Source of the DNA: Lentibacter algarum | GTDB lineage: Bacteria > Pseudomonadota > Alphaproteobacteria > Rhodobacterales > Rhodobacteraceae | Length of the DNA: 64,000 nt | Assembly: GCF_018860975.1 (NCBI RefSeq) | Contig: NZ_JAHKQI010000005.1 | Location: 434,001 to 498,000 of the forward strand | Direction: 5' to 3' | Part shown: positions 1 through 18,151 of the stretch, piece by piece | Layout: the number at the start of each line of letters is the position of its first letter | Numbering within the stretch: position 1 is the stretch's first letter | Position numbers and translations under genes: made by a program | The notes under the pieces: generated by a model | What the model was told of the DNA's origin: nothing | Seen by the model: the letters and a program-made list of their open reading frames with translations, nothing else | Database searches by the model: none

Positions 1-647
1 TTCTCGCTGATTGTGCCAATTGCGGCACTGCCTTGCGTTAGTTCAGGCATCTGACTGCGATGCATGCCTGAGGCTTGAAGCAATGCCTCCGACCAGTCCT
101 GTGCACCAACGTCAAGCCACGATGTGCCAGCTGCATCAGACAAATCACAACACATCCGGCCCGTAAGCCAGAAATTTACATAGTCCTTGGGCAAGAGCAC
201 CGTGGCAACACGGTCAAAGATCTCCGGCTCATGCTCGGCAACCCACATCAGCTTGGGCGCAGTAAACCCGGGAAACACGATGTTACCTGATAAAGCCCGA
301 ACCTTGTCAGCCGCGTCAAGTTTTGCCGCCTGCGCGTGGCTGCGTGTGTCATTCCAAAGAATGCATGGTCGTAAAACTGCGCCTTCGCTGTCGAGCAGAA
401 CAGCCCCATGCATGTGCCCTGAAATGCCAAGCCCACGCAAGGCCGTCATTTCGTTAGGGTGGTTTGCCCGCAGTTCGGCCAGCGTAGCTTGCAGAGCGTT
501 TATCCAGCTTTGCGGATCTTGCTCGCTCCAACCCGCCTTCGGGTGCGAAACGTCGTAATGTGCTTCTGCCGCACCGATGGTCTTCCCCGTGTCATCGACA
601 AGCAATGACCGTAGCCCAGATGTGCCAAGATCCAATCCCAAAAACAC
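1..647 (-). CDS. xylB: Xylulokinase, FGGY family (3' part cut by window edge)
   Basis: Sugar kinase of the FGGY family, most likely D-xylulokinase, which phosphorylates D-xylulose to feed the pentose phosphate pathway in the cytoplasm. About 215 N-terminal residues are visible. They open with the phosphate-binding motif FLGLDLGTSGLRSLLVDD, followed by GWSEQDPQSW and the substrate-side GISGHMHGAVLLD, and by a PCILWNDTR motif typical of XylB. I chose a GTG start at 647 because a GGGGGG ribosome-binding tract lies seven bases upstream and homologues begin at this point; an in-frame ATG at 677 would add ten residues. The C-terminal ATPase half lies outside the window. Other sugar kinases of the family are possible, but the motifs favour XylB. 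Confidence 0.85.
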   Translation of the reverse strand, partial: MFLGLDLGTSGLRSLLVDDTGKTIGAAEAHYDVSHPKAGWSEQDPQSWINALQATLAELRANHPNEMTALRGLGISGHMHGAVLLDSEGAVLRPCILWNDTRSHAQAAKLDAADKVRALSGNIVFPGFTAPKLMWVAEHEPEIFDRVATVLLPKDYVNFWLTGRMCCDLSDAAGTSWLDVGAQDWSEALLQASGMHRSQMPELTQGSAAIGTISE

Positions 648-738
648 TGCTGTTCCCCCCGTTTTTACTAATTTCATATTAGCCTTGCTTGGGCGGCAGT
701 GCAAAAACCAATCGCAATAAAGTGCAACTAAATAGCGG

Positions 739-1842
739 TTAGAACTTCATGGTGCTCATTTGCTTTGCGGCGCTCAATTTGCCGATGTCAAACGCCATTT
801 GCATACCTGCCGGGTCGGTGAAATCACGCACCAGCGCCAGTTCCTTTGCGGTGAGCGTGATGTCCAGTTCGTCTTTCAACCACTGGTGTTCAAGACCGAC
901 ATTATAGCGTGAAAAGCCAAATAGCGGCGCCGGCCCTAGCTGGAAATCTGACAAGTCACCAATCTCGCTATTCAGATGCCAAGCATGTTTGCACGCTCCG
1001 AGTGATTGCATGATGCTCAGGTTGTGCGCCTCACAATCAGCGATAACGCTTGAAACCGCCTTGATGGCCATACTCGCTGCAGGTGCTCTGCCAAAGCGGC
1101 TTTTCTTCGTTCGCTGCCGGAAAGTTCCGGTTCCGATTGAAATAATGTCGAGCCGGTCGAGCCCGGTGTCCCAGCTGTAGCCGTATTCAGGCACTGTGAC
1201 CAACAACAGTAACGCCAGCCCTGGCATGTTGTGTGGAGACACGCCGCCATCGACAAACAGCCCGGGGGTTTCGCCAGTGACGATCTCAAGGAGTTCGGGC
1301 GCAAAATAGTATGGGGCCGCCGTCGACGCGCGCACAAGTTTGGCAAGGCTGTAGTTCCGGTTGCCAATAAAACTCCCGTCTGGGGCATCCTGCCAGAAAG
1401 CGCCTTTCGGGTTGTTATGCACGATCCATGGGCTGCCTGTGTCCATTCGTTTGGCAACAATCGCGAGGTTGGTTTGGATGCGATCACTGTCGAGCTTGGC
1501 GTCGCCGATGATATCTTGCAGCTGCGCTTTGAGCATCCGCGCATCAAACACGGATTGGAGCCCACGCAAACGAAACCGCGGTTTGCGAAACACCTTAGGG
1601 CCGAGACGCATGTAAAAGCGTGTGAGATCTTTCGGTGAAAGCCCAAGACTTAACCCCGCAGCGATAATTGATCCGGTCGAGGTGCCGCCGATCAGATCAA
1701 AGTGCTGGTGAATGCTACCTTTGCCTGATTGTTCCAACTGTTCCTGAAGGTGCTCGAGGAAAGCCAACGTGATGATCCCCCGAACACCGCCGCCATCTAA
1801 TGCCAGAATGTTTCGTTTAGGCAAATTTGCGTTTGGTGTCAT
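739..1842 (-). CDS. Patatin-like phospholipase
   Basis: Predicted patatin-fold acyl hydrolase of 367 residues, cytosolic or membrane-associated. The oxyanion motif GGGVRG is at residues 17-22, the nucleophile elbow GTSTG at 53-57 (Ser55), and the catalytic Asp in FVDGG at about residue 198, so the Ser-Asp dyad is complete. The ATG start has an AAAGGAAG ribosome-binding site. No signal peptide or membrane helix is evident. It is divergent from the RHS/STAND genes. Patatin lipases are known effectors in CBASS and other bacterial immune systems, but no cyclase is visible nearby, so an effector role is inferred from context only. A housekeeping lipase is the alternative. Confidence 0.85.
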   Translation of the reverse strand: MTPNANLPKRNILALDGGGVRGIITLAFLEHLQEQLEQSGKGSIHQHFDLIGGTSTGSIIAAGLSLGLSPKDLTRFYMRLGPKVFRKPRFRLRGLQSVFDARMLKAQLQDIIGDAKLDSDRIQTNLAIVAKRMDTGSPWIVHNNPKGAFWQDAPDGSFIGNRNYSLAKLVRASTAAPYYFAPELLEIVTGETPGLFVDGGVSPHNMPGLALLLLVTVPEYGYSWDTGLDRLDIISIGTGTFRQRTKKSRFGRAPAASMAIKAVSSVIADCEAHNLSIMQSLGACKHAWHLNSEIGDLSDFQLGPAPLFGFSRYNVGLEHQWLKDELDITLTAKELALVRDFTDPAGMQMAFDIGKLSAAKQMSTMKF

Positions 1843-2015
1843 GGGAGCTTCCTTTAACGTAAGAGTTCCCGTTGAGGTGTTTTCAGAGGGAAACGCAGAA
1901 AGGGTTGCTTGAATTTTGGTTCAGGTCAACACCCTTGATTTCTCTCATTTTGAAGCGCTAAGCTGACAGCTAATAGACCGGAATTTTTCGAAAGCTGCTT
2001 TTGGGGAGGCATGTT

Positions 2016-3728
2016 TTGATTTTACATTCATTTGGCTATGCGCGTCTGAGATTTTGCATCAAGTTTCTGTTCCCGTTGCTGGCGGTACTGTTGCTTTCGA
2101 TAACGGCGCCGGAATCCGCCCGTGCGGGTATTAACCTAAAGAACGGCAACTTTTACATCACCTACACCGATATGATCATCGGCCATCCTGAGTTCTCAAT
2201 CGTAAGAACCTATAATTCGAAGGCGGGAAAGACACTTTCCTTCGGGTTTGGTTGGGGCACCGATCTGGACACGTCACTGACAGTGGTCGGAGACGGAACT
2301 GTTATTCTGGACGAGAACGGTTCGGGCGCGCGGAGGGTTTTTCGCCCGTCCCAGACGGACATAGCCAAACGGGATGCTATTGTTGAAGAGATGCTGGGGG
2401 CGATGGAAGCGGCCGGTTGGATAACAACAGATAAGCAACGCGATGAAACACGCGTGAAACTGCGCGAGGATGCTGAAGAACGCCGAGTTCTGCACCGCAA
2501 GCTTGTGTCCATTGATATGATGCCGGAGCGTGATCTCGCTGTTGGCGAAAGGCTGGTTTCAACCAATGACTTGAATGCATTCATTGAGAAAGAACCAGGG
2601 GGGTATTACCGGCGCGGCTCGAAGGGATACGAGCGTTTCAATCAGCAAGGCCAGCTTGTTGAAATGGTGACGCAAGACAAAGTCGGATACAGATTACGAC
2701 GTAGTGAACAAGGCCACTTGCGAGAAATCATTGCTTCTAACGGCGAGCGCATTGCTGTTTCGACAAATGCCAATGGTCAGATCACTCGGCTAGAAGCAGG
2801 GACAATCAACGCGACATTTGAGTATGATGATCGAAATAATTTGATCAGTGCGACAAACGCTGTCGGCACGACTTATCTGTACGAATATGATGAAAAACAT
2901 AACATGCGTTTCATCCGCTACGAAGACGGGACCTATCTTGAAGTTAGGTATCAAGAAAGCACGTTGCTTGCCAATTTTCACCGTGATCAAGATGGGCAGG
3001 TAACGCGGTATGAATACGGCACCAACCCCATTGTCGAGCCGGAAATTGTCGAGCACTATTTTACGCGGTTGCGCAAATTCGAGAATGAGAGCGACACAAA
3101 CCCGTTTTTGGATAGGACAATTGCCTATCGTATCGGTCGTGACCAGTTCGGAAACAACTATACCGTCAGTGTTAAAGACACTCAAAACGGCAACACGACC
3201 AACACGCACTACCATCCCTGCGGCAATCCGATTTTGATAGAACGAGGTAACCGGCGGACAGAGTTTGACTATGACGACAAGTGTTACCTGACCTTCAAGA
3301 AGACTGATAGGGAACAGACGCGTATCAGGTATGATCGCCGGCACAGGAAGATAGAGTTTGTCGAAACGATCAAGCTGTCTGACAACTCTCGTATGACCTC
3401 TGAGTTTGAATACAATTTACGCGGAGATCTCGTGAAGGCCTGGAACAGCAAGGACATGAGTGTCGATCTGACCTATAATGACCAAAACCAAATCAGCCGG
3501 ATGCGAGATCAGAACGGGCAGGTGCTGGCCTTTGTTTATGGCCCTGTCGGGAAGCCCATCCAAATCTCTATCGAAGGTGTCGGCCAGATCGATGTTCAGT
3601 ATGACGCAAACGGTGAGATCGAAAATGTTGCGAGCGCGCAGGGGCACGAGATGGCTTTGAAAGTGACGCAGGCTTTTCAGGGGCTGCTCAGGTTGGTCAA
3701 ACCGGCCGGTGTGAGCCTCAACCTTTAG
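2016..3728 (+). CDS. Exported RHS/YD-repeat protein with DUF6531-like N-terminus
   Basis: Protein of about 570 residues. A hydrophobic N-terminal segment (LFPLLAVLLLSITA, about residues 18-31) ending in ESARA is a likely signal peptide. A DUF6531-like segment follows (NGNFYITYTDMIIG, then IVRTYNS). YD/RHS-type repeats run from about residue 210 to 560 (for example YDDRNNLISA, YEYDEKHNM, FDYDDKCYL). The C-terminus simply ends after the repeats: there is no RHS core hyperconserved motif and no variable toxin domain, so it is much shorter than polymorphic RHS toxins. I prefer a TTG start at 2016, six bases after GGGGAGG; TTG at 2001 is also in frame but has no such site. It sits 12 bases upstream of the STAND gene and is probably co-transcribed with it. 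Function unknown. Confidence 0.75.
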   Translation: MILHSFGYARLRFCIKFLFPLLAVLLLSITAPESARAGINLKNGNFYITYTDMIIGHPEFSIVRTYNSKAGKTLSFGFGWGTDLDTSLTVVGDGTVILDENGSGARRVFRPSQTDIAKRDAIVEEMLGAMEAAGWITTDKQRDETRVKLREDAEERRVLHRKLVSIDMMPERDLAVGERLVSTNDLNAFIEKEPGGYYRRGSKGYERFNQQGQLVEMVTQDKVGYRLRRSEQGHLREIIASNGERIAVSTNANGQITRLEAGTINATFEYDDRNNLISATNAVGTTYLYEYDEKHNMRFIRYEDGTYLEVRYQESTLLANFHRDQDGQVTRYEYGTNPIVEPEIVEHYFTRLRKFENESDTNPFLDRTIAYRIGRDQFGNNYTVSVKDTQNGNTTNTHYHPCGNPILIERGNRRTEFDYDDKCYLTFKKTDREQTRIRYDRRHRKIEFVETIKLSDNSRMTSEFEYNLRGDLVKAWNSKDMSVDLTYNDQNQISRMRDQNGQVLAFVYGPVGKPIQISIEGVGQIDVQYDANGEIENVASAQGHEMALKVTQAFQGLLRLVKPAGVSLNL

Positions 3729-3740
3729 GGAGAGTCTGTG

Positions 3741-6700
3741 ATGGCTAAGTCGACTGGGGTGAAAGCCTTGCCGGAGATCAAGATATTTTTGTCGTCTCCC
3801 GGGGATGTAAATGAAGAGCGGGTGCTTGCCGGACGGGTGCTGCAACGCTTGACAGAGCGCTATGCGCCTGTGGTCAAGCTGGTTCCGATCATATGGGAGC
3901 ACGAACCGCTTGTTGCTTCGGCAACCTTTCAAGACCAGATCGAAAAACCGTCGACCACCGACATTGTCATTTGTATTTTGTGGTCGCGTTTGGGGACACG
4001 GCTACCCGCACATATCGTGCGTGACGACGGGAGCCGTTATGACAGCGGCACCGAGTTCGAGTTTGAAGATGCTTGGGATGCAATTCAGCGTACCGGACGC
4101 CCCGACTTGTTGGTGTATCGCAAAATGGCTGAACCGTTTATCAGCCTTGCCAGCAATTCCGATGCGGAAGAGCGGTTGCGCCAAAAGCGGGCGTTGGACG
4201 GTTTCATTGAAAAGTGGTTCCACGATCAGGATGGTTCGCTGCTTGCAGCGTTTCACGGTTTTGGTAACTCCGCCGAGTTTGAAGAAGCGTTCGAAACCCA
4301 TTTGGACAAATTGATCCAGCGGCGCCTTGAGGAGCTAGGCATCGAAGGGTTGCACACCGCCTCTACGCGGGATGTAACGGCTCAGCCACTCTGGGAAGGT
4401 TCACCGTTTCGCGGCTTGGAAACCTTTGAGTTTGAGCATGCTCCGGTCTTTTACGGGCGCACACATGCGATCTCGGGGGTTCTTAAAACGCTGCGCGCAC
4501 AGGCAGCGCAAGGCAATGCTTTTGTGCTGGTTCTCGGGCGGTCAGGAGGTGGTAAATCCAGCCTTGTGCGCGCTGGTGTATTGCCGCTGCTTGTTGAGCC
4601 GGGTGTGGTTGAAGGTGTTGGCCTTTGGCGCCGCGCGGTCTTCCGTCCCAGCGAAGCAAACGGCAGTTTGAATGCGGCCTTCGCGGCTGCTCTGTCGGCT
4701 CCGCTGGCTCTTCCCGAACTCTTGAGTGACGGGACGACGGTTGATGAGCTTGGTCAGTTGCTGGACACAACGCCAAAGGGAGCAGATATGCTCTTGAAAG
4801 GCGCTCTGTCGCAGGCGGCACAAAAGGCTTCTATGAAGGCGGCCGAGGATCATGACGCCGCGCACCCCGATTTAACGCCCGAACAGCGCGCGCTTGACCG
4901 CCGCGAGATAACCGAGAACCCGCCAACAGCCAAACTGGTTTTGCTGGTTGACCAGCTTGAAGAGCTTCTAACTGATCCGAACATTCTACAGTCGGAACGT
5001 GACGACTTTTTGAAGGCGCTCACTGCGCTTGCTGGGTCGGGGCGGGTATATGTGGTTGCGACCTTGCGCAGTGACTTTTACCAGCAGGCGATAGAGCAAC
5101 CGGTGTTTGCGCAGCTGAAAGGCAGCGAAGGACAATATGATCTGAGCGCTCCGACACCTGCGGAAATCGGCCAGATTATTCGGCAGCCGGCTTTGCGTGC
5201 GGGTCTGACTTTTGAAGAACACCCCGAAACCGGCGCGCGACTTGACGATGATCTGCGCGATGCGGCGGTCGCCGAACCCGACAGCCTGCCGCTATTGGAG
5301 TTCACGCTTGAGGAGCTTTATCGCGCGCGTTCACCTGCCGGTGTTTTGACATGGGAGGCTTATGAGGCTCTGGGAGGTTTGGCCGGTGCGCTTGGGCGGC
5401 GAGCTGAGGAAGCCTTCAACAAACTGCCTGCCGCGGCACAGGCAACTCTTCCACAAGCGATGCGTCAAATTGTGCATGTTCGTCTCGACCGCGATCAAGC
5501 CGCAACCAAACGCGCGGCCAACATGGAAGACTTCCAGCCGGGAACCCCTGTCAGGCAGTTGATTGATGCTTTTGTCGATGCGCGGTTGTTTGTCGTTGGT
5601 GGTGACAGTGCCGGCAAGACCGTTGTCACCTTGACACATGAAGCTCTGCTTTGGTCGTGGCCACGACTGCAACAATGGCTAGAAGATGATCAGGAATACT
5701 TGCGCATCCGTGCCCGTGTCAGCTTTGCAGCTGATCGTTGGGAAGAAGCAGACCGCGCGCCGCAACTGTTGTTGCCGATCGGTCCGGCGTTGGATGAGTC
5801 ACGTCAGATAACCGAGGACAGCGCGGCAAATGTTTCTCCTTCGGTCACGAGTTTCATAGCGTTGTCAGTGGCTCGCGCGACACGTTCGCGGCGCTTGAAA
5901 CAGGCCGCAATAGCAACGCTCGCAGTGCTGACATTCGGGGCGACAGCAACAGCTTGGTACGCCGACGGCCAGCGTCGTGAAGCTGCTTCGGCACGGGTTG
6001 AGTCCGAGGCGGCGCAGTTAGAAGCCGAGAGCAACGCAGAAACGGCGCAAACGCGGCTAGGCGAATTGTTTTTTGAGCAGGGTCGACAAGCGCTTTTGGA
6101 TGGCCGTGCAGAGGAAGCCACTTTGTTGCTGGGTGCCGCATACGGCAGCGCAAACGACGATCACGTTGGTGCGCTGTTTTCAACGGCCCATGATCTTGCC
6201 TCTATCAGGGGCGCAACGACTTTGGAAAGTTCCGGCCAGATCACTAAGCTGGCAACCGGAGTAGATAATCTCGTGGCCATTGCGGCAGATGACGGATCTG
6301 TAGTGATCAGAGATATTGTGACAGGTGAAAGGCTTGCCCGCCACCAAGGCGATGATAGTGCAATCAAGGCGTTAGCCTTTTCGCCGGACGGCAAGTTCGT
6401 TGCTTTGGGGGCTGATGGCGGTAACCTGCTGCTGTGGGACTACAAAGCACAAACCAAGCAAAGGCTTGAAGCGCACTTTCAAGCCATAAGTCAGCTTTAC
6501 TTTTCAGCAGATGGCACGCGGCTTGCGTCGTTGTCACATGACAAAACGACGCTGGTTTGGAATGTTACCAGCGGCGATTTGATCACCACGCTTCCCGAAC
6601 TTGGCGGTCAGCCGGTTTCGGCACGCTTTACCGAAGATGGAGAGCACATTGTCACGCTCAGCAGCGAAGGTGATGTTTCAAAGTGGAACAGCACGACGGG

Positions 6701-9700
6701 CCGGGAAATGTTTCGCTGCAAAACTCAAGCTACGCTCCCTGTGCTTGACGGGCTTGTGTTGAGTGAAACCCATGCAGTGCTGGCACATGGCAAATCCGGA
6801 TTGCTAGCTGTCACAATTGACGAAAGCTGCGAAACGGTATGGCAGAACCCGACAGTTGCGTTGGGGTTGGATGTTGCCAACGACCGCAAGCATTTGCTGG
6901 TTCGCAACGAACTTGAAGCCGTGATTGTGGATGCTCAAACCGGTGAAACAGTCACCAACACCAAGAGCGGCGTAGTGGACGTTGGTCAAAGCCAGATCAT
7001 CGCTGCCAACCTTTCGCCGGACGGCGGTATGATGGGGACGATCGACAATTCGGGCACTTTGACACTTACGGACGCGTCGTCTGCAGGCGGTGTGGTGGCC
7101 AAGTTGAAGGGGCACGCCGCCAGCGGTAGCGCGATCACGTTCTTGCCAGACGGTAATACGCTTGCGACCGCTGCGGTTGATGGCACGGTTACCGCGTGGA
7201 ACCTGTCAACGTTACGGCCCTGTGTTTTGCCCGGCGGTGCCGGACATGTTGTTACGTTTGCACCTGGCGGCAAATACGTCGCTTCCGGAGACAGTACCGG
7301 TCGGATGACGCTCGCCGATTTGGCAGACTGCGCCAATGCTCGGGTGTTTTCAGTAAACCCCGATCGGGAATGGATGCAGGATATCGTCTTCAGCGATGAC
7401 GGGGCGCAAGTAGTGACCGCTTCAGGCAGCTTTGTTTCTTTATCTGAGGTGACGAGCGGCGATCTTGTTTGGCAGTATCGCCTACCAGATGGCCAGTTTG
7501 CGACGAGCCTTGCATGGAACCATAACAACTCGGGGATACTGGTCGGAGCGAGCGGCCGTGAACTTGGCAGCAGTGATGGAGGGTGGGTCGAGCTTAACAA
7601 GGCGACGGGCACAAAAATGAACGAAAGTTCTGAATTCCAGACGCCGGTTTCCAGCCTGCAGCCATGGAACGAAGATTCTTACGTTCTAACCCGCTCATCT
7701 GCGGGGTTGTATCTGTGGTGGCAAGACACCGGCCTGCAAAGACATCGCGTCGCGGATCGGAAAACCAGAGCGGTTGCCTACTGGCCAGACAAGACTCGCT
7801 TGGCCGTCGGAAACTCGGCAGGGCAGGTGCATGTGATCCGTCATACCACCAGCGAATTGTTTCATTTTGAGGCTCATGCCGCTCCGGTGAGTGCTTTGGC
7901 ATTAGATGCGAAAGGCTCACTGTTGGCGAGCGGTGCAAATGACGGATCCGCTGCGCTATGGAATGCAGACTCGGGCACACTTGTCGCAGAGTTGATCGGG
8001 CATTCAAGCCGGATCAGCTCGATGAAGTTTGTGCCGAATTCGTCATACGTGCTTTCCGCGGCAACCAACGGAACGGTGATCCTTTGGGATTTGAAATCAG
8101 GGTCGCAAGTTGCGCGGTTTGATGGCCCGTCGGGGCCTAGGCCGCAACTGGCTGTCGGCCCGAACGGCGTATGGTTTGCTGTTGCGACAGGGCGCGGAAA
8201 CACACGGCTGTGGCGGTTACCGCGGTTGAGTGTGGCTGTGACTGATATCGTATCCGAAATAAGTTCCGTGACGCCATGGGGGCTAAACATCGGAGATGAA
8301 CTTCCTCAGGATCGCTGGCAAGTTCTTGCGTTAGAGGCGCTCGGTGAGCAACTTGATAAAGGTGATTTGGCTGTTTCGCTTGAAACGCGGCAACGCCTCG
8401 AGGCCGGCCGCGCTGCGGCGGTGCGCGGTGATGCTCTTGCCGCAGGGCGTAGCTGGCAACAAATTGACAAATCACCGCAGGAATCCGAGCAATCGCCTGC
8501 CGACCTGCCTCGCGCTTATCAGCATGCCAAGGCTTCGAACGCTGTTTCTCTCAACGGAATAAGCCGCGTTCTGAGCACTCATAAAGAAAGGGTCGAGGAC
8601 ATTGGCTTTTCCAAAGATGGTAGTGTTTTCGCTTCGGTCGATTGGGCTTTCAAGCTGGTTATATGGAACAGCAGCGACTGGACAGAACGGTTTGTTTTGG
8701 AGGGTGAATACGCAAGTGGTATCGCATTTTCTCCTGACAATGGGTTTGTCTCGACACAAAGGCGGCAAGGCGGGCTTGCCGTCATTGATCTGACAACCGG
8801 GCAAGAGGTGATGAAACTTGCTCAAGGTCAGCGCGGATTTTGGGCCCCGGATTCCAAGCGCATTGCAGCGTTTCCGCGCATTGGTGCGCCAATAATTTAT
8901 GACGCCATGACAGGGCGCGAGGTGATGCGTTTTCCCAAATACGAAACAGGAACGCACGGCTTCGCGATCTCTTCTGATTTCGCGCGTCTCGCCGCACCAA
9001 CAGAGAAGGGGCTGGATCTGGTCGATACTGCGTCTCGTAGCGTCGTGGCGAATGTGCGTGCAGACACCCGTTCAAGTAACGGGGCGGGCGTTAAGGTGAG
9101 CTCTGCAGTCTTTTCACCTGACAATAGCCTGATCGCGGTCTTGTGGTCGGATAAGACTGGCGCATTGTATTCAACTAAAGATGGAGAATCCGTTATCTCG
9201 CTGCCCGAAGGGGCGACGAAGGTAGAGTTCTCTCCGGACGGCCAGAAGCTCGTGGTAGATGTTGCAGATGATCAGGTCGCGTTGATTGATGTTGAAAGCG
9301 GGCAGCAACTCGCGGTCGTGCATGGCTCACTCGGTTTTCACAGGAGCTTCCTACAAGAGGGGCAATTGTTCTCGACGCTAGATGGAGGGCGTAAAAGCAT
9401 CCAGATTTATGACGCTGCATCAGGTCATCTGACGGCGGAGCATTCAGGGCATGCAACAGCTTGGATGCAGTTGGCGTCATCGCCGGACGGAACGACCCGA
9501 GTTACCACCTCGGGCGACGGGCAACTTCGGATATGGGATACCAGCATCCGTGCAGGTGCGAGGAGTGATACCAACGAGCCCCTAGCAGCATTGCCGGCGG
9601 GTGTTCTGGCTCAACTTTCTGATGCTGAACAAGTGGTCCGTCGAAATGGGCGTGTGGTGCTTACCAACCGAGCAAACGGGTATTCGGTGTTGAACGGCCA

Positions 9701-10061
9701 CCGAGGAGATATAACCGCTGCGCGTTTTACAGGCGATGGTAGTCAACTCGTTACGGGCGGCGAGGACGGGCGGCTTCTTTTTTGGGATAAAGACAGCGCA
9801 TCTCTGCGGCATTCTATCTCTGGCGCTTGTGAAGAAACGGTGTTGTCCATCCTCCCGACCAACGATGCTGAAGCTGTTTGGGTTTATTGTTTGAATGGCG
9901 AGTTGCGCCTGTTTGAAACAGCAAGCGGGCGTGCCTTGATAACACAGTTTGCTTTGCCGCCTGGCAGCGATCGGTCTGCTCAGATGAGCTTTTCCGAGGA
10001 TGGAAAGGTGTTGCAACTGCAAGGCGCTGATGGGCCGTATCGGTGGCGCGTCGTGCCGTGA
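3741..10061 (+). CDS. DUF4062 - nSTAND1 NTPase - TM - WD40 repeat protein
   Basis: Very large signalling NTPase (2106 residues). Order: DUF4062-type N-terminal domain (IKIFLSSPGDVNEER, about 13-110); nSTAND1 P-loop NTPase with FRGLETFEFEHAPVFYGR at about 230, Walker A GRSGGGKSSL near 265 and Walker B LVLLVDQLEELL near 400; one probable membrane helix (AAIATLAVLTFGATATAW, about 720-740) with a charged, coiled-coil-like stretch; then WD40 repeats from about 830 to the end, in two blocks split by a non-WD linker near 1500-1610. STAND proteins are ligand-triggered oligomerising switches, and WD40 arrays usually act as the sensor. ATG at 3741 is chosen because AGGGAG is spaced better for it than for the GTG just upstream. 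It lies in one transcription unit with the RHS gene. The trigger and the output are unknown. Confidence 0.85.
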   Translation: MAKSTGVKALPEIKIFLSSPGDVNEERVLAGRVLQRLTERYAPVVKLVPIIWEHEPLVASATFQDQIEKPSTTDIVICILWSRLGTRLPAHIVRDDGSRYDSGTEFEFEDAWDAIQRTGRPDLLVYRKMAEPFISLASNSDAEERLRQKRALDGFIEKWFHDQDGSLLAAFHGFGNSAEFEEAFETHLDKLIQRRLEELGIEGLHTASTRDVTAQPLWEGSPFRGLETFEFEHAPVFYGRTHAISGVLKTLRAQAAQGNAFVLVLGRSGGGKSSLVRAGVLPLLVEPGVVEGVGLWRRAVFRPSEANGSLNAAFAAALSAPLALPELLSDGTTVDELGQLLDTTPKGADMLLKGALSQAAQKASMKAAEDHDAAHPDLTPEQRALDRREITENPPTAKLVLLVDQLEELLTDPNILQSERDDFLKALTALAGSGRVYVVATLRSDFYQQAIEQPVFAQLKGSEGQYDLSAPTPAEIGQIIRQPALRAGLTFEEHPETGARLDDDLRDAAVAEPDSLPLLEFTLEELYRARSPAGVLTWEAYEALGGLAGALGRRAEEAFNKLPAAAQATLPQAMRQIVHVRLDRDQAATKRAANMEDFQPGTPVRQLIDAFVDARLFVVGGDSAGKTVVTLTHEALLWSWPRLQQWLEDDQEYLRIRARVSFAADRWEEADRAPQLLLPIGPALDESRQITEDSAANVSPSVTSFIALSVARATRSRRLKQAAIATLAVLTFGATATAWYADGQRREAASARVESEAAQLEAESNAETAQTRLGELFFEQGRQALLDGRAEEATLLLGAAYGSANDDHVGALFSTAHDLASIRGATTLESSGQITKLATGVDNLVAIAADDGSVVIRDIVTGERLARHQGDDSAIKALAFSPDGKFVALGADGGNLLLWDYKAQTKQRLEAHFQAISQLYFSADGTRLASLSHDKTTLVWNVTSGDLITTLPELGGQPVSARFTEDGEHIVTLSSEGDVSKWNSTTGREMFRCKTQATLPVLDGLVLSETHAVLAHGKSGLLAVTIDESCETVWQNPTVALGLDVANDRKHLLVRNELEAVIVDAQTGETVTNTKSGVVDVGQSQIIAANLSPDGGMMGTIDNSGTLTLTDASSAGGVVAKLKGHAASGSAITFLPDGNTLATAAVDGTVTAWNLSTLRPCVLPGGAGHVVTFAPGGKYVASGDSTGRMTLADLADCANARVFSVNPDREWMQDIVFSDDGAQVVTASGSFVSLSEVTSGDLVWQYRLPDGQFATSLAWNHNNSGILVGASGRELGSSDGGWVELNKATGTKMNESSEFQTPVSSLQPWNEDSYVLTRSSAGLYLWWQDTGLQRHRVADRKTRAVAYWPDKTRLAVGNSAGQVHVIRHTTSELFHFEAHAAPVSALALDAKGSLLASGANDGSAALWNADSGTLVAELIGHSSRISSMKFVPNSSYVLSAATNGTVILWDLKSGSQVARFDGPSGPRPQLAVGPNGVWFAVATGRGNTRLWRLPRLSVAVTDIVSEISSVTPWGLNIGDELPQDRWQVLALEALGEQLDKGDLAVSLETRQRLEAGRAAAVRGDALAAGRSWQQIDKSPQESEQSPADLPRAYQHAKASNAVSLNGISRVLSTHKERVEDIGFSKDGSVFASVDWAFKLVIWNSSDWTERFVLEGEYASGIAFSPDNGFVSTQRRQGGLAVIDLTTGQEVMKLAQGQRGFWAPDSKRIAAFPRIGAPIIYDAMTGREVMRFPKYETGTHGFAISSDFARLAAPTEKGLDLVDTASRSVVANVRADTRSSNGAGVKVSSAVFSPDNSLIAVLWSDKTGALYSTKDGESVISLPEGATKVEFSPDGQKLVVDVADDQVALIDVESGQQLAVVHGSLGFHRSFLQEGQLFSTLDGGRKSIQIYDAASGHLTAEHSGHATAWMQLASSPDGTTRVTTSGDGQLRIWDTSIRAGARSDTNEPLAALPAGVLAQLSDAEQVVRRNGRVVLTNRANGYSVLNGHRGDITAARFTGDGSQLVTGGEDGRLLFWDKDSASLRHSISGACEETVLSILPTNDAEAVWVYCLNGELRLFETASGRALITQFALPPGSDRSAQMSFSEDGKVLQLQGADGPYRWRVVP

Positions 10062-10084
10062 TTATACTCTAGGGCGGCGCGCAG

Positions 10085-11905
10085 CTATCGTGCCGACGCG
10101 TTGAGAATGCCGCGCACTTTTGCACGGTCATACTCCTGAATCTCATCGCTCAGATCTGCGTAAGGCAGCAAGTTCGGATGAAATTTGCGCAGATTGTCAC
10201 GCGTCTCGTTGTAGAGCCAACCATCTAGTTCGCGGTCGATCCACCAGGCATCATGCTCAAGGGCTGCCAGTTGTTCAACAACAGCCGCCTCCGCAACCTG
10301 TGCCTCGCTGAGCAACTGGCTTTGCGAAAACGCGAGCATTCGCAACTGATCGGCGGCGCGGCGGTTCGCGTTTTTGTATGTTTCCGGCAAGGCATGCCAC
10401 GCAACCATCGTTGCTGCGCGGTGTTGTTCCTGATCCGGATCAGCGAGGCGGTCGTTAAGATACTCTAGGTGAAGTTGTTGCGCCAATGCTTCACGGGCAC
10501 TCTCTCCTTGCCCCCAGTTGTATGTTTCGTCCGAGCGCCCGAATGGTTCAATCACTTCAGAAAGGATGTCGGTTTTGGGGAGTTTCTTCTGAGAGATCGG
10601 CATTTCGTCTGCAGCGTAATCAGTGCAAATCAAAAACTGGTCTTCGGCACTCTTTTTTTCGGAATGGACATAAATCGGAACCGCCAAGCTCTTCAGCCTA
10701 CGGCTGAGTTGGCGCAGTGTGGTGCCGATTTGTATGTTGCTCTTGCCGATGCGTTTTGAGTCTTCGGCAACAATAATCGCTGTGGGTGCTTGCAAGGTTT
10801 TTTCAAATGAAGCGAGCTTGGTCTCGTCATACAATGCGCGCGTTTCACCTGTTTCATACACCTGCATCGACACCGCCCAAGACAAGGGGGTGTCAGGCTT
10901 CAGATCAAACAAAAGCGCAGCGAGTGGAGGGTAATTCAAAGACAACAACCGTTGAAGCTCGGCTTTATCCTCGACGATCCAACACACGCGCGGTTTCTTT
11001 GCGAGCGTCGACGGTGAGACGCGTAGGAACTGAATAATCACCTCGGCAGCAACTGTGGTTGCTCCAAAGACTACCAAGTTGGTGTTCTCCTGATTTTGTG
11101 ACACTGCGAGTGCATTGAAGTTGACGCGTGAGTTCAGATCAACAGCAACAGACTTGGCCGGATTGATCACCCGCAAGAGCGTGCCGTCCCCCAACTTTTG
11201 CATGAAGGTATCAGACTCTTCTAGCTGGTTGTGCAGTTTCACATCGTCGATAATCAATATTACATCTTTGGGCAGCTGTATTTCTGCGTCTGCGATCTCT
11301 TTGATGTGCTCCATGTTTGCAGTGTCGGTTCCTGTCGAAACAATGATCCGTTCAGCCCTCGGTGCGCGGCAGGCTTGCAGTTGTTTGGCCAGTTCGACCT
11401 CGTCCCTAGTTGCATAGTGCAGACAGCCCTCGGCATGAGCCTTCTCCTGTATCTTGGCAGAGGCTGTCGGATCGACGACGACAACTGCGCGATCTCGCAA
11501 GCGCTGCTTGGATTTCGTAAACATGCGCGCGCGACTGTCAAAGCCAAGCAGCACGGTATGGCGCCGCAACAAGGATATTCTGAATTTTTCCGCCTGTTCC
11601 TTCAGGGCTGCCCACAACAGCGTAAGAATGGCTGCAAATGTCACGAGCGCTCCGAGCGTTTCAGCAATCGTCAGCACCCAGCCCTCGGTGCCGGGGCTGC
11701 TTCGCGGTTTGGGGCGGAAAACACGAATAGCGCTCGGGATGGTATCGAGCACAATTTTGACGCTTTGCGAGACGCCGGGCTTCTCAGATGCGACAGCAGA
11801 AAAGTTTTTTTGCAAATTCCCGACGAAACTAAGCGCCAAGGCTATCACAGCGGCCCAAACCACGTATCGACCTAGTGTTGAACGTTTTTTCAGTAGCTTA
11901 AGCAT
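10085..11905 (-). CDS. Two-TM RCK-type channel-like protein with C-terminal RyR domain
   Basis: 606 residues. Two hydrophobic helices (about 12-31 and 78-100) are followed by two Rossmann/TrkA-N-like domains (VLLGFDSRARMF near 118; VVFGATTVAAEVI near 275), the plan of RCK-gated ion channels. No TVGYG-type potassium filter is visible between the helices. The C-terminus carries a RyR domain preceded by its usual helical lead-in (AWHALPETYKNANRRAADQL, then EHDAWWIDRELDGW and KFHPNLLPYADL). RyR domains are known in animal ryanodine receptors and in bacterial channel- and nucleotide-linked proteins. The likely role is a membrane conductance gated by a nucleotide ligand. It converges with the STAND gene and diverges from the TIR gene. 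Confidence 0.8.
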   Translation of the reverse strand: MLKLLKKRSTLGRYVVWAAVIALALSFVGNLQKNFSAVASEKPGVSQSVKIVLDTIPSAIRVFRPKPRSSPGTEGWVLTIAETLGALVTFAAILTLLWAALKEQAEKFRISLLRRHTVLLGFDSRARMFTKSKQRLRDRAVVVVDPTASAKIQEKAHAEGCLHYATRDEVELAKQLQACRAPRAERIIVSTGTDTANMEHIKEIADAEIQLPKDVILIIDDVKLHNQLEESDTFMQKLGDGTLLRVINPAKSVAVDLNSRVNFNALAVSQNQENTNLVVFGATTVAAEVIIQFLRVSPSTLAKKPRVCWIVEDKAELQRLLSLNYPPLAALLFDLKPDTPLSWAVSMQVYETGETRALYDETKLASFEKTLQAPTAIIVAEDSKRIGKSNIQIGTTLRQLSRRLKSLAVPIYVHSEKKSAEDQFLICTDYAADEMPISQKKLPKTDILSEVIEPFGRSDETYNWGQGESAREALAQQLHLEYLNDRLADPDQEQHRAATMVAWHALPETYKNANRRAADQLRMLAFSQSQLLSEAQVAEAAVVEQLAALEHDAWWIDRELDGWLYNETRDNLRKFHPNLLPYADLSDEIQEYDRAKVRGILNASAR

Positions 11906-12102
11906 TTTGTGGCCCTCGTCGCATGCCGAAGTTTAGCCAAGAGCCAATAGATATGAAATCGCAAAATCAGGTGAAGCTTACAGATGGCTCGGATTGCAGT
12001 TATTGGCTGTCTTCCCCTTCATCCATATCATGGTAACTACTAGCAGTTTCCGTGTGATGTCATTAAAGTTTGCGAAAGCAAGTCGAGCAAGTGAAGCCCC
12101 CT

Positions 12103-15100
12103 ATGAAGACGCCTGAAGTGACCGCCGAAGTAAAAGTGTTTGTGTCTTATTCCCGCAAGAATTGGGAGCAGGTTGACAGGGTTCAAGACGCTCTGAATGC
12201 CTATGACGACGTGAACGTGTTGCGTGACACCGCTGATATACTGCCAAGCGAGGAGTGGAAGCCGCGGCTTGAAGCACTGGTGACAAACAGCGATGTATTT
12301 TTGTTTTGCATAAGTCCTGCATCACTGGCGTCAAAGGAGTGCCATTGGGAACTGGCGTTGGCTGAAAAGCTGAACAAAAAGATCATTCCAGTTGTGATCG
12401 AAGATGTCGAAGGGGATATTCCGCCCAGCTTGGCGGTGCTCAACTACATCTTCCTCAATCGTGGAGACCAGTTTCAGATTGGTGTTGAGCAAGTTTATGC
12501 AGCGATGAGCATGGACGTCGCGTGGGTGCGTGAGCACACCCGCCTTGGCGAGTTGGCATTGCGATGGGAAAAGTCACAAAAGCTCGGCGCGAGCATTTTG
12601 CGCGGCAAAGATTTGGAAGATGCCGAGCGTTGGTTGATCTCGCAACCGGAAGCCGGCCCCGTCCCTACGACAATTCACCGCGAGTATATTCTGTTGAGCA
12701 GGAAGAGCGAAACGCGCCGTCAGCGTAGGTTTCTTTTCACCAGCTTGGCCTCTCTGACAGTGGTTTTGGCGCTTTCAGTTTTTGCATTCATTCAACGTAA
12801 CAACGCCATTCGCAACGAGGCGAAAGCCATCACCGCGATGGAAACGGCGATCGAAGCTTCGAAAACGCTGGTGTTCGATTTGGGAGGGAAATTCAAGCAG
12901 TGGGGCTTGCCCGTTGATAAGTCTGTTGAATTGATGGATGAAGCCTTCCGAATTCAAGACAGTTTGATCACGTCATTTGGTGATCAGAACCCCAAGATCA
13001 ACTCTGCACGGGCTGGTTCTCTCAAGATCTATGGCCGTATTCTGGCCGATTTCGGTGAGACCGAAGCCTCTATTAAGGTATATGAAGAAACGTTGCAGGT
13101 TCTGGATTTGCCTCAAAATCTGGAAGCGTTTCATATCGCTTCGGTAAAAGCGGAGACCAAAGGAGAGATCTCCGATCTTTACCGCGAAACCCAAGAGGTT
13201 GATCGTGCCTTTGAGCTGTCAGCTGAAGTTCTTTCGGAGCTTGAAGAACTATACAAAACGCAACCGGCGATTATCGCGATTGTGGAGCCTCTTGCGAAGG
13301 CCAGATACAGACACGGTCTTTTTAAGATAAACCTCAAGGATGATCCTTCCGGGATCAAAGACATTCTTGCTGCCGCACCGCTTTTTAAGCGGTTGTTCGA
13401 GCATGATAGAGACGCTCCGGTGTGGGCGAACAACTATTCCAAAGTTTATGAGAAGGCCTGTTCGGTACAAATGAACTTTGATCGGTTTGCAGAGGCAAAG
13501 GCCAGTTGTGAAAAAGCGCATGAAATTAGCTTGAAGTATCTCAATGACCCGTCGAACCCGACCTTTTTTCTAGAAAGAAAGGCGAGTATTTTTCAAGGCT
13601 TGGCTGAAATTTCAGAGCACGAAGGCGATACTAAAGCCCAACGTCAGTATCTTGAGAAAATGCTGGAAGCTGCTTTGCAGTTGCACCAATTAGACCCTTT
13701 GAATGTTTATTGGAAGTTTGATTTAGCGGCGCAGACCGTCAGTTATGCTCAAGGCCCCCTTTCGGCTCAAGAGCGAGCAGACAATTACAAACGCGCCAAC
13801 GAGCTTTTCAGCGAGCTTGCCAAAGACAACCCCACCAATGGGTCGTTTTTTGAACGTAAAACAATGACGGCTCTTCTCTATGCCGATTCACTAAGCAAGG
13901 TCGGGCAACGTGCCGACAGCCTGAAACTGTTTACGGATGCATGCAAGGATGCGGAAGAGTATTCCGAGAAGTTCTGGAACTTCCCCGAGCAACTGTCCGA
14001 GCTTTGGTATTGTTATCAAGAACTGGCGTCCATGCAGCGCTCCGACATGCAGGCTCATAAAGTCGAGGAAGTAACCCGCGTCCATGAGCGCTTACTCGAG
14101 ATATCACGACACCGCGCGCAGGGTAACAATCCGGACTTTTCGCTCAATTACGGCAAGGCACTCATCGCCTACGCCGAGCTTGAAGACATCGGCAAATCGA
14201 CACTAGAAAAATTCGAGATGCTGATGCTTGCAGCAGAGTGGTCAGCCAAGGCTGAAAATGCGCCCAAGACTCGCCGTTCTGCAATGTTCTATCACAGTAA
14301 GGCACTTCGCTTGGCCGCAAGTCATGCAGCACAAATGACTTCAGTTGATGCTGATGAACGCCAACTTTCGGAACAGGCATATGATGTCGCGGTGAAGGCT
14401 GTGAAGGAGTTCCCCGAGGAGTATTTTACATTAGACAACGTGGCCCGTGCCGCAGGTGCCATGGCAAAACTCGAAGCCACTGCCAAGAAATCTGATAGGG
14501 CCAGTGAGTATGCTAAAGACCTGATCACCTATCGCCAGCGCGCAGTCGAGGTAGCTGATGAGAGCGACAAAACAAGTCGTGAAGTAAGCCTCGGCTACGC
14601 CTACACCGAGGCGATGAGGTTGGCCGCAGACTTGTCTCTCTATGAAGACGCTAAACAATACGCAGACAGCGCCGGTGCGCTCAGGTTGCGCCTGTATCAG
14701 GCAGATCCGACAAATGAGGGGCTGTTCACGAACTATCTCTATGCGATGTATCGCTCGTCCACTTACTCAACTAAAGCCGGTAGGCTGGATGAAAGCGTTG
14801 AGCAAATCGACGATCTGATAGCCTTTATGCAATCCACAGGAGCACAGCATTTTGCACCATCTGTCTATCATGTCTATCACTTGGACGCAGTAACACATGC
14901 GGCTTGGAACCTCGAACTTGACGGGCAATTTGAACGTGCTCAACCCTATGCCCGAGAGGCGTTTGAACTTGAGAAAAGGGTGGCTTCATATGTCAACTAC
15001 GGACATGCGCTCCTTTACTCGGGAAAATTTGAAGCAGCGGTTGAACTCTACAAAGCTTGCATCAACGAGGGCCTGCAAACCCAAAACCGTTCCTGCAAGG

Positions 15101-15198
15101 AAATCATCGAGCTGGATTTGGAAGAATTCGTAAGCAAAGGCCATCTGACCCCGCGCAAGTCAGAACTCGTAGCTTTGCTCGGATTGGTTCTGCAGTAA
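12103..15198 (+). CDS. TIR domain - TM - TPR-like repeat protein
   Basis: 1031 residues. An N-terminal TIR domain (KVFVSYSRKNWEQVD, about residues 10-140) contains SPASLASKECHWELALAE; Glu83 sits where TIR NADases keep their catalytic glutamate. A linker with VREHTRLGELALRW and RGKDLEDAERWL, typical of TIR-STAND/WD40 architectures, leads to one membrane helix (LFTSLASLTVVLALSVFAFI, about 207-226), then a long alpha-helical, TPR-like region to the C-terminus. The TIR portion is therefore probably cytosolic, tethered to the membrane. The start is uncertain: ATG 12103 is closest to the domain, while a TTG at 12070 would add 11 residues; neither has a strong ribosome-binding site. It is divergent from the RyR channel gene (about 200 bp shared promoter region). 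Predicted NAD hydrolase/cyclase or scaffold of a conflict system; activity is unproven. Confidence 0.82.
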   Translation: MKTPEVTAEVKVFVSYSRKNWEQVDRVQDALNAYDDVNVLRDTADILPSEEWKPRLEALVTNSDVFLFCISPASLASKECHWELALAEKLNKKIIPVVIEDVEGDIPPSLAVLNYIFLNRGDQFQIGVEQVYAAMSMDVAWVREHTRLGELALRWEKSQKLGASILRGKDLEDAERWLISQPEAGPVPTTIHREYILLSRKSETRRQRRFLFTSLASLTVVLALSVFAFIQRNNAIRNEAKAITAMETAIEASKTLVFDLGGKFKQWGLPVDKSVELMDEAFRIQDSLITSFGDQNPKINSARAGSLKIYGRILADFGETEASIKVYEETLQVLDLPQNLEAFHIASVKAETKGEISDLYRETQEVDRAFELSAEVLSELEELYKTQPAIIAIVEPLAKARYRHGLFKINLKDDPSGIKDILAAAPLFKRLFEHDRDAPVWANNYSKVYEKACSVQMNFDRFAEAKASCEKAHEISLKYLNDPSNPTFFLERKASIFQGLAEISEHEGDTKAQRQYLEKMLEAALQLHQLDPLNVYWKFDLAAQTVSYAQGPLSAQERADNYKRANELFSELAKDNPTNGSFFERKTMTALLYADSLSKVGQRADSLKLFTDACKDAEEYSEKFWNFPEQLSELWYCYQELASMQRSDMQAHKVEEVTRVHERLLEISRHRAQGNNPDFSLNYGKALIAYAELEDIGKSTLEKFEMLMLAAEWSAKAENAPKTRRSAMFYHSKALRLAASHAAQMTSVDADERQLSEQAYDVAVKAVKEFPEEYFTLDNVARAAGAMAKLEATAKKSDRASEYAKDLITYRQRAVEVADESDKTSREVSLGYAYTEAMRLAADLSLYEDAKQYADSAGALRLRLYQADPTNEGLFTNYLYAMYRSSTYSTKAGRLDESVEQIDDLIAFMQSTGAQHFAPSVYHVYHLDAVTHAAWNLELDGQFERAQPYAREAFELEKRVASYVNYGHALLYSGKFEAAVELYKACINEGLQTQNRSCKEIIELDLEEFVSKGHLTPRKSELVALLGLVLQ

Positions 15199-15735: not shown

Positions 15736-16584
15736 TCAAAAATCCAAACCAAGATCGACCGTCGCCGCCGAATGCGTCAACCCACCGGACGAAATGTAAT
15801 CAACGCCGGTTGCGGCAATCGACGCAACGCGATCTAGGGTCACATTACCGCTGGCTTCTGTTTTCATTCGACCATTCACCAGCGTGACCGCCTCACGCAG
15901 CATGTCGTTGCTCATGTTGTCCAACAGAACAACTGAGGCCCCGCCAACTTCCAAAACTTCGGCCAATTGATCCAGCCGATCAACCTCTATCTCGACGACC
16001 ATCATGTGGCTCGCATGCGCCATGGCGGCTTCCAGGACTTGTCGCACACCACCGGCCGCTGCGATGTGATTGTCTTTGATCAAGATCGCGTCGGACAGCG
16101 AATACCGGTGATTAAATCCACCGCCATGCAGAACCGCTAACTTTTCCACCAGGCGCAAGCCGGGCGTTGTTTTACGAGTGCAGGTCACGCGGGCGTTGGT
16201 GCCCGAGGTCTTAGCTACGAATGAGGCGGTCTTGGTCGCGATGCCCGTCAAACGACCCGCAAAATTCAGTGCCACCCTTTCCGCGGACAAGATTGAGGCA
16301 GCACTGCCTTCAAGCGTCATGAGCGTTTCACCAGCCTTGCAAGGTTGTCCATCCGCAACACGTGTTTTGATGTCGAGCGTGGGATCAACAAGATGAAATG
16401 CCATCCGCGCAACTTGCATGCCCGACACGACGGCATCGGCGCGGGCGTTCAGGTGCGCTGTGTATGTCGTTTTGATAGGGATCACAGCACGGGTGGTCGC
16501 ATCGCCATAGGTGCCCAAATCTTCCATCAGCGCATTGCGGATCATGGGCTCTAGGATCAAGTCAGGAACGTTGGGAAAAATCAT
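15736..16584 (-). CDS. nadC: Nicotinate-nucleotide diphosphorylase (carboxylating)
   Basis: Quinolinate phosphoribosyltransferase: converts quinolinate and PRPP to nicotinate mononucleotide, CO2 and PPi, the last pathway-specific step of de novo NAD synthesis. 282 residues, normal for the family. Diagnostic motifs are EDLGTYGDATT near the N-terminus, TRKTTPGLR, the VEKLAVLHGGGFNHR segment, LIKDNHI, and GGASVVLLDNMS for phosphate binding. The start at 16584 gives an ATGA overlap with the nadB stop and a GAGGAAG ribosome-binding site; an upstream ATG (five codons earlier) is less likely. Third gene of the nadA-nadB-nadC operon. Confidence 0.96.
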   Translation of the reverse strand: MIFPNVPDLILEPMIRNALMEDLGTYGDATTRAVIPIKTTYTAHLNARADAVVSGMQVARMAFHLVDPTLDIKTRVADGQPCKAGETLMTLEGSAASILSAERVALNFAGRLTGIATKTASFVAKTSGTNARVTCTRKTTPGLRLVEKLAVLHGGGFNHRYSLSDAILIKDNHIAAAGGVRQVLEAAMAHASHMMVVEIEVDRLDQLAEVLEVGGASVVLLDNMSNDMLREAVTLVNGRMKTEASGNVTLDRVASIAATGVDYISSGGLTHSAATVDLGLDF

Positions 16585-18146
16585 GATGCTTCCTCGCAAA
16601 TTTTGGACCGTATCGCCAAGGCCTCTTTCAGCGTGATCAGCGACCTTCGGCCGGCACCGGGAAAGGTGTCGGGGAAGTCGGCACGGGAATGCGCCCCGCG
16701 ACTTTCTTGGCGGTTCAATGCAGATACAGCGATCAACGTCGCCGTCGCCGTCATATTCAGGAACGAAACACTGGATTTGTGGGCGGCTTCGAGCGCTGCA
16801 AGCTTGCGCAGCGCAGACGTTAGGCCATTAGCGTCGCGAACAACACCAACATGATCGGTCATCGTTTGACGCAACTCCGCCACGGCATTTGGATCGGGCG
16901 GCGTGCCACCGCTGTCGAATGAAATGTCGATGGCTGAGGCGCTTGTCTTAGGAATGCATTTTGCGATGTCATCAGCACAGATGCGTGCGTAAACTAACGC
17001 TTCGAGCAGCCCGTTCGACGCCAGTCGATTGGCGCCATGTAGTCCGGTCGATGATGCTTCGCCACAAACCCAAAGATGGCCCAAAGACGCGCGTCCATCA
17101 ATGTCGGTTGCGATCCCGCCCATGTGGTAATGCGCGGCTGCAGCCACAGGAATGGGGGTGATCGCGGGGTCGATTGCATTGCGGGCGCAGGCGTCCGCCA
17201 CGGCTGGATATTGGGTTTTGATCGCCTGCCCAAGCACATCACGCGTATCAAGCACCGGATGCCGCCCCGCTTGGGTTTGCGCAAAAATCGCGCGGGCTAC
17301 GATGTCACGTGGCGCAAGTTCTGCATCAGGATGCAAAGCTTGCATGAACCGTTCGCCACGGTCGTTTGTCAGGATCGCGCCTTCGCCTCGCAGGGCTTCT
17401 GTGGCCAGTGGTGCCGGGTCCTCACCGACATCCATGGCCGTCGGATGAAACTGCACGAATTCCGCATCCGCAATGAGAGCACCCGCACGCGCGGCCAATC
17501 CGATGACCTGACCACGGATGCGCGGTGGGTTGGTCGTCAGCGCATAGAGCCCGCCAGACCCGCCACCTGCCAACAGGACAGCGCTGCCACGCAGCATCAC
17601 AGGTGCAGAGCAAAGGGCATCGGCCGATTGAACCGCAACACCTGTGACGCGTCCGTCAGAAACCTCAAGCTCAAGCGCCATTGTGCCGTCTAACACTTGA
17701 ATGGAAGGCGTCGCGCGAACGCGTTCGATCAGGGCGGCCATGATTTCAGCACCCGCTTGGTCACCCTTGACGCGCACCACCCGCGCAAAGCTGTGGGCGG
17801 CCTCGCGTGACATGACATAATCACCGGTCTCTGTCCGATCAAAGGGTGTGCCAAGCGCAGTCAGATGAAGGATGTGAGAACGGGCTTCTTGGGTGACAAG
17901 GGTGGCAACGTCTCGATCAACAGTTCCGTCACCCGCATTGACGGTATCTGCGGCATGGCTTTGTGCGCTATCTGCGTTGCTCATCGCAGCCGCGACCCCG
18001 CCTTGGGCCCAAGCAGAGCTGGCCCCCTCGCCCAGACTTTCAGGTGAGATCATCACAACCGGACGCGGCGCAAGTCGCAGCGCGGCATAAAGCCCCCCAA
18101 GGCCTGCGCCAACAATGACGACCCGGTCGGTTTGAATGGTTTTCAT
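16581..18146 (-). CDS. nadB: L-aspartate oxidase
   Basis: FAD enzyme that oxidises L-aspartate to iminoaspartate, the first step of de novo NAD synthesis. 521 residues. The N-terminal dinucleotide fold VIVGAGLGGLYAAL, the SSAWAQGGVAAA segment, the active-site HYHMGGIATD with DGRASLGHLWVCGEAS, and GLHGANRLASNGLLEALVYA match NadB rather than succinate dehydrogenase subunit A; the short C-terminal helical domain also fits. It begins five bases after the nadA stop and overlaps nadC by four bases, so the three genes should be translated together. Confidence 0.96.
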   Translation of the reverse strand: MKTIQTDRVVIVGAGLGGLYAALRLAPRPVVMISPESLGEGASSAWAQGGVAAAMSNADSAQSHAADTVNAGDGTVDRDVATLVTQEARSHILHLTALGTPFDRTETGDYVMSREAAHSFARVVRVKGDQAGAEIMAALIERVRATPSIQVLDGTMALELEVSDGRVTGVAVQSADALCSAPVMLRGSAVLLAGGGSGGLYALTTNPPRIRGQVIGLAARAGALIADAEFVQFHPTAMDVGEDPAPLATEALRGEGAILTNDRGERFMQALHPDAELAPRDIVARAIFAQTQAGRHPVLDTRDVLGQAIKTQYPAVADACARNAIDPAITPIPVAAAAHYHMGGIATDIDGRASLGHLWVCGEASSTGLHGANRLASNGLLEALVYARICADDIAKCIPKTSASAIDISFDSGGTPPDPNAVAELRQTMTDHVGVVRDANGLTSALRKLAALEAAHKSSVSFLNMTATATLIAVSALNRQESRGAHSRADFPDTFPGAGRRSLITLKEALAIRSKICEEAS

Positions 18147-18151
18147 TTAAA

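Follow-up and report, generated by a model that had tools for sequence, protein, structure and literature searches.

What do five neighbouring genes of Lentibacter algarum have in common? They lie in a stretch of 64,000 nucleotides, which we call the window (assembly GCF_018860975.1, contig NZ_JAHKQI010000005.1, positions 434,001 to 498,000; genome G000, C8:434001-498000 in our numbering). An earlier note on this DNA took them for an island of conflict genes. All five open reading frames (ORFs) are present at the positions it gave, and code for a patatin (P0001), an RHS protein (P0002), a STAND-WD40 protein (P0003), a channel-like protein ending in a RyR domain (P0004) and a TIR protein (P0005). 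What ties these genes together, a point which that note did not name, is the RyR domain, as likely receptor of a nucleotide made by the TIR protein.

The RyR domain and the genes beside it

P0004 matches the RyR family (PF02026) with an E-value of 6.6e-13 and 49.2 bits, above the cut-off of 27.4. Among solved structures, residues 492-596 match RyR Repeat12 (R12), the best match having 3.7e-19. The AlphaFold model (pLDDT 78.8, pTM 0.76, 21 sequences) has two long helices at the N-terminus, separated by a shorter one, then two Rossmann domains and a RyR domain made of helices; hydropathy peaks are found at 11 and 76-84. The membrane part and the first RCK domain match the profile of a TrkA-domain channel, 4gx5 (GsuK). 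Fold matches include DMI1, CASTOR and GsuK, in their gating rings, and R12, with a large root-mean-square deviation over long matches. On this predicted model, P0004 has the fold of an RCK-gated channel with two transmembrane helices (2TM). Pfam TrkA_N does not match P0004 itself, though it matches its relatives.

The phage RyR-domain protein RyDEP cleaves 2'/3' cyclic ADP-ribose (2'/3'cADPR), products of some TIR enzymes; its residues H75, W78, H100 and D117 contact this ligand, and six of eight homologues bind the signals (PMC13232231). Residues H551, W554, H576 and D593 of P0004 have an identical spacing, and are nearly invariant in 21 members of the family. The conservation of these ligand residues, together with the findings on RyDEP, leads us to propose the RyR domain as a reader of a TIR-made ADP-ribose messenger.

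A candidate source of this messenger is P0005, whose match to TIR_2 (7.5e-22) is the only one in its genome. It has a CHWE motif at residue 91, so that the candidate catalytic glutamate is presumably E94. The protein thus offers the TIR-domain signal enzyme expected of a Thoeris system, but PADLOC ThsB profiles match weakly (best 1.2e-6): judged by these matches, P0005 is a TIR protein rather than a ThsB ortholog. Among 72,556 plasmid records five match P0005, over its first ~220 residues only.

P0001 matches Patatin with 2.9e-26, has DGGGVRG, GTSTG and DGG motifs at residues 16, 53 and 198, and is predicted to be a second membrane effector. Its residues 11-248 match NCBIfam CBASS_lipase (NF041079) with 121 bits, below the cut-off of 200, so it does not qualify as an equivalog.

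P0003 matches nSTAND1 (6.3e-90) and WD40 families, and has GRSGGGKS and VLLVDQ motifs at 267 and 401. Its nSTAND1 part is 41% identical over 502 residues to a channel-linked nSTAND1 protein in G469, and its N-terminus 41% identical over 185 residues to a protein in G800, which is found 5.7 kb from a RyR channel with one large ORF between. This N-terminal domain is DUF4062-like by eye (SSPGDV motif) and matches PADLOC PDC-S60 with 6.9e-7. At E 0.001 the genome contains no match to Pfam DUF4062 (PF13271), nor is this among the families listed for P0003 (25 of 62). BLAST found no match between the P0003 N-terminus and the DUF4062 protein of locus L096: these proteins share a common architecture, without detectable sequence likeness.

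The domain labels of the earlier note hold by Pfam for patatin, RHS, nSTAND1-WD40, RyR and TIR; DUF4062 does not, and the TPR of P0005 is weak (best 0.0015), below the family cut-off. The single membrane helix assigned to each repeat-rich protein agrees with a hydropathy peak at residue 223 of P0005 but is weak in P0003, where no 19-residue window rises above 1.8.

Distribution and neighbours of the channel family

Relatives of P0004 are rare and divergent. Among 120 relatives 3 have a match, as do 8 of the 337 genomes of the class; both counts include the genome of the window. Distant relatives align across the 2TM part, both RCK domains and RyR. A contig scan of 84,980 species yielded 24 loci. 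In a profile search of 398 genomes of the phylum, 360 matched; by the listed ranges, almost all of them did so through the common TrkA_N part. Full-length members among the matches listed are found in seven (G000, G141, G461, G657, G519, G469, G459). In the family of NOR5-3, 25 of 140 genomes matched; full-length members are present in nine, in one case divided between contigs (G407, G410, G794, G816, G800, G812, G906, G814, G898). P0004 has no match in the plasmid records. Viral contigs (pattern A3) gave 23 matching stretches, none of which encodes a relative.

After merging duplicate fetches of one genome, and dropping L029 (the other half of the G814 gene) and L040, L044 and L049 (not clear full-length members), 31 loci were counted. 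In 18 of these, the window included, the nearest TIR, patatin, STAND/DUF4062-like, SLATT or caspase gene is no more than 6 kb away (Table 1). They span Alpha- and Gammaproteobacteria, Bacteroidales, an actinobacterium and a Methanoregula archaeon. Only G265 passes the Pfam cut-off for SLATT; the calls in G141 and G657 rest on weak Pfam matches, those in G461 and G898 on our own profile. DUF4062-like, caspase and SIR2-TIR neighbours were spotted by eye or motif, then checked by Pfam or BLAST.

Our profiles of TIR, patatin, STAND and SLATT were built from channel neighbours, which biases them toward these; they match within 1.5 kb of 11 of 27 channels, vs none of 22 genes with RCK only. With the same bias, they match 17 of 182 genes within 5 kb of a channel vs 1 of 127 beyond. 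None of these four families is among the Pfam matches listed (25 of 43 families) for the 69 ORFs around the 22 RCK-only controls.

One such case is the patatin. P0001 is 45-48% identical over ~360 residues to the channel-linked patatins of G141, G461 and G657, and forms with them one clade (support 100/99). Those of Kineobactrum and NOR5-3 form a second one (100/100), and a weak branch (77/75) has all six on the same side, separated from 14 other patatins. These are 14 of 36 others; 30 were fetched, and our own profile found 14 of them.

TIR_2 matches are found in 12 of 15 family genomes in a first set and 5 of 7 in a second. Exactly one match is present in 10 of these 22, and in seven of the ten it is near the channel (G000, G187, G519, G407, G408, G410 and, at ~7 kb, G898). 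By chance, as estimated from gene number, a lone TIR would be only a few genes away from any particular gene in well below 1% of genomes. The TIR neighbours of G407-G410 were known when these genomes were selected; excluding the window and the three genomes chosen in this way, the proportion is 3 of 6.

About 8 changes of the partner label, no fewer than 5 of them forced, are required on the channel tree, so coupling to conflict genes has been gained or lost repeatedly. L030 is labelled 'none' in this tree, its DUF4062-STAND neighbour having been found later.

Table 1. Features of the window and neighbours of the channel in other loci
Feature	Position	Strand	Basis
P0001, patatin-like phospholipase, 367 aa	739..1842	-	ORF, Pfam, motifs
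P0002, short RHS/YD-repeat protein, N-terminal hydrophobic segment, 575 aa	2001..3728	+	Pfam, hydropathy
P0003, SSPGDV(DUF4062-like)-nSTAND1-WD40 protein, 2107 aa, predicted sensor/switch	3738..10061	+	Pfam
P0003, SSPGDV domain, residues 14-197	3777..4328	+	41% identity to G800 protein
P0003, nSTAND1 NTPase domain, residues 223-675	4404..5762	+	Pfam
P0004, 2TM-RCK-RCK-RyR channel-like protein, 606 aa, predicted messenger-gated ion channel	10085..11905	-	Pfam, AlphaFold model, fold matches
P0004, RyR domain, residues 470-604, with H551, W554, H576, D593	10094..10498	-	Pfam, structure matches, motif spacing
P0004, two RCK/TrkA_N-like Rossmann domains, about residues 114-430	10616..11566	-	Model, fold matches
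P0004, membrane part, helices 10-38, 45-63, 76-111	11573..11878	-	AlphaFold model, hydropathy
P0005, TIR-TM-TPR-like protein, 1042 aa, predicted NAD+-consuming messenger maker	12070..15198	+	Pfam TIR_2, hydropathy
P0005, TIR domain, candidate catalytic E94	12136..12492	+	Pfam, motif
xylB, flank of the five genes	3-704	-	Sequence reading, without profile
nadC-nadB-nadA, other flank, beside the TIR gene	15736-19201	-	Sequence reading, without profile
G187: TIR-WD40			
G141, G461: patatin, SLATT-like protein			
G657: patatin, SLATT-like protein, WD40 fragment			
G265: SLATT_3			
G519: TIR-nSTAND1, two caspase-domain genes			
G469: nSTAND1-FGE			
G459: DUF4062-STAND-WD40, convergent with channel, arranged as P0003/P0004			
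G103: TIR-nSTAND1-TPR (channel partner has TrkA_N, no Pfam RyR match)			
NOR5-3, Kineobactrum: TIR-TPR and patatin in each			
Bacteroidales: TIR-NB-ARC-TPR gene, CAP12/PCTIR-like gene			
Methanoregula: TIR			
G814: TIR-TPR			Own profile, TIR_2 genome search
G898 (array in L188): SIR2_2-TIR_2 fusion, STAND protein, SLATT-like protein, RyR channel	110-10226		
G800: two SSPGDV proteins			
L030 (Coriobacteriaceae): DUF4062-STAND 1.6 kb off; RelA_SpoT-RyR gene on other side			

Nothing supports including the RHS gene in the system. P0002 matches RHS_repeat (3.3e-12) and DUF6531 (2.1e-10), has no BLAST match in the 40 neighbour loci searched and a single one among the plasmid records (23% identity, E 7e-6). 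It ends 9 bp upstream of P0003; the five genes lie on both strands, and only these two look like an operon.

As for the surroundings, xylB and nadB have matches in all six congeners, at 27-35% identity only (34-35% for nadB), and P0004 has none in any of the six, so the five genes appear to lie inside a larger, accessory-looking region. A link to NAD synthesis, through nadCBA beside the TIR gene, was considered; none was noticed at other loci, where no aimed search was made.

A few other arrangements may be mentioned. In L094 (5909-12548), the RyR channel is flanked by two caspase-domain genes, one with FGE-sulfatase, and a TIR-nSTAND1 gene is near. The channels of L043, L048 and L050 belong to a stand-alone Hyphomonadaceae/Caulobacterales clade, in a similar context without conflict genes. 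RyR-ending proteins of other make are found in L030 (7964-10471, carrying RelA_SpoT), L097 (6041-8563) and L153 (8856-11564); the latter has DUF4062-like ORFs, identified by eye, and a TIR-like ORF nearby. Perhaps RyR domains are also used for other nucleotide signals.

Possible role of the five genes

We give about even chances to a membrane-bound, TIR-driven defence island, Thoeris-like and acting in an abortive or stress response, where a messenger opens the RyR-domain channel and the phospholipase is a second effector. We infer a trigger, a messenger, conduction by the channel and protection of the cell, which may be connected as follows. The WD40 repeats of P0003 and the TPR-like part of P0005 would sense the trigger, and the STAND switch of P0003 may relay it. 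The P0005 TIR domain, judged by its family, would make an ADP-ribose messenger, cyclic or linear, from NAD+. This messenger would bind to the RyR domain of P0004, with its four cADPR-contacting residues, and the RCK ring would open the 2TM pore, collapsing ion gradients. Patatin P0001 would attack the same membrane, perhaps under the same messenger.

A wider proposal is offered tentatively, with the chances somewhat against it: bacteria and archaea may own immune ion channels in which cyclic ADP-ribose made by TIR proteins gates the RyR domain. These would be the prokaryotic equivalent of the animal cADPR-RyR axis and a Thoeris-like class whose effector would be ion flux, not NAD loss. If true, an ion channel is added to the outputs of TIR immunity, and it is suggested why phages carry free RyR-domain proteins which bind or cleave the same signals. 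On the small TIR-channel pair of Methanoregula (256 and 565 residues), direct gating could be tested. In animals, cADPR has been implicated in the function of RyR, and the authors of the RyDEP study urge the study of a direct interaction (PMC13232231).

Several results weigh against the defence island. No such partner was found in 13 of the 31 loci (L031, L032, L033, L035, L036, L037, L043, L046, L047, L048, L050, L051, G906), which were checked by our four profiles and BLAST or motif, with Pfam on some neighbours only; the contigs of L032 and L037 are short, and those of L047 and L051 stop less than 1.2 kb from the gene on one side. Stand-alone clades (Hyphomonadaceae/Caulobacterales; Sphingosinicellaceae/Caulobacteraceae) are found beside ordinary genes, for example those for gamma-glutamyltranspeptidase and alkaline phosphatase, so a linked TIR is not a constant companion of the channel. 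TIR_2 is without a match in five family genomes (G141, G265, G317, G800, G812), in four others no match adjoins the channel (G461, G657, G469, G459), and in G794, G816 and G906 the lone match is away from it. The TIR counts cover 22 family genomes, other than those of nine mostly stand-alone loci (L030, L032, L033, L035, L036, L043, L048, L050 and L051), so there may be more unlinked cases. Clustering of the partner label on the channel tree does not exceed chance (123 of 500 shuffles were as low). The loci do not count as independent samples; some partners had been spotted by eye before testing. The motif of the K+ selectivity filter, TVGYG, is not seen by eye in the P0004 sequence, and ion conduction is a prediction.

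The membrane-associated island with several effectors inferred by the earlier note is partly supported, in that patatin, TIR, STAND/DUF4062-like and RyR channel genes recur together and the patatins are kin. Other results speak against it: the exact set was seen in none of the other loci read, RHS lacks a counterpart in the 40 loci searched, and 13 of 31 loci are partner-less. The scattering of homologues, which the note had named as evidence against itself, is found in the stand-alone clades but not in the other loci.

The stand-alone clades would also fit a rather unlikely explanation, a housekeeping or stress channel gated by ATP, ADP or NAD, around which conflict genes gather via membrane action or hotspots. 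GsuK is activated by ADP and NAD+ (PMC3510474), and the animal R12 domain binds ADP and AMP-PCP (PMC12627627). Nevertheless, coupling to TIR and patatin is repeated in distant lineages, and the 22 RCK proteins without RyR have no such profile match beside them. It is quite improbable that the five genes are unrelated inhabitants of a variable region, the TIR alone depleting NAD, the patatin and STAND coming from other systems, and the channel being near through hotspot gathering: both gene directions, the accessory flanks, the unseen exact set and the RHS gene agree with this, but the genome's lone TIR_2 match adjoins the channel here and in six other genomes, and the patatin clade and operon-like arrays also argue against it. 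Finally, the RyR domain could cleave the TIR-made messenger rather than sense it, as an off-switch anchored or regulated by the RCK-TM part while patatin or TIR kills, since H551/D593, kept in 21 of 21 members, equal the catalytic pair H75/D117 of RyDEP; this is very unlikely, as none of the other homologues tested cleaved 2'/3'cADPR, highly conserved though they are (PMC13232231), and fusion to a channel-like 2TM-RCK body favours gating.

Comparison with known systems

Our literature search found no paper pairing a TIR gene with a RyR-RCK channel; most subscription papers were outside its reach, so priority is not established. A 2015 paper on nucleotide-centric conflict systems in Nucleic Acids Research (NAR) may already predict part of the present reading. 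RyR as a term does not occur in the main text of PMC7159879 and PMC9503650, as far as available.

In Thoeris, a TIR protein (ThsB) is paired with a cADPR-sensing effector. Here too, a TIR enzyme adjoins a gene with a domain which in phage relatives binds 2'/3'cADPR. In contrast, Pfam, PADLOC and NCBIfam scans of the five proteins find no ThsA-type effector, the role of receptor is proposed for a RyR domain carried by a 2TM-RCK body, and the TIR of P0005 has a membrane helix and a TPR-like part fused to it. The same scans find no CD-NTase among the five, which, with the sub-threshold lipase match, sets them apart from CBASS, whose patatin phospholipase P0001 resembles. The phage anti-Thoeris protein RyDEP shares with P0004 the PF02026 domain and the equal spacing of H, W, H and D, but is a free protein which removes the signal (PMC13232231), whereas in P0004 the domain forms the end of a channel-like protein whose gene is coupled to TIR genes. 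The dual-RCK K+ channel GsuK and plant CASTOR/DMI1 have the same 2TM and RCK parts by predicted fold; P0004 differs in its extra RyR domain, the lack of TVGYG and its conflict-gene neighbours. Repeat12 of animal ryanodine receptors has the same RyR fold and pocket residues (conservation according to PMC13232231), but there the channel body is unrelated and the receptor about 5000 residues long.
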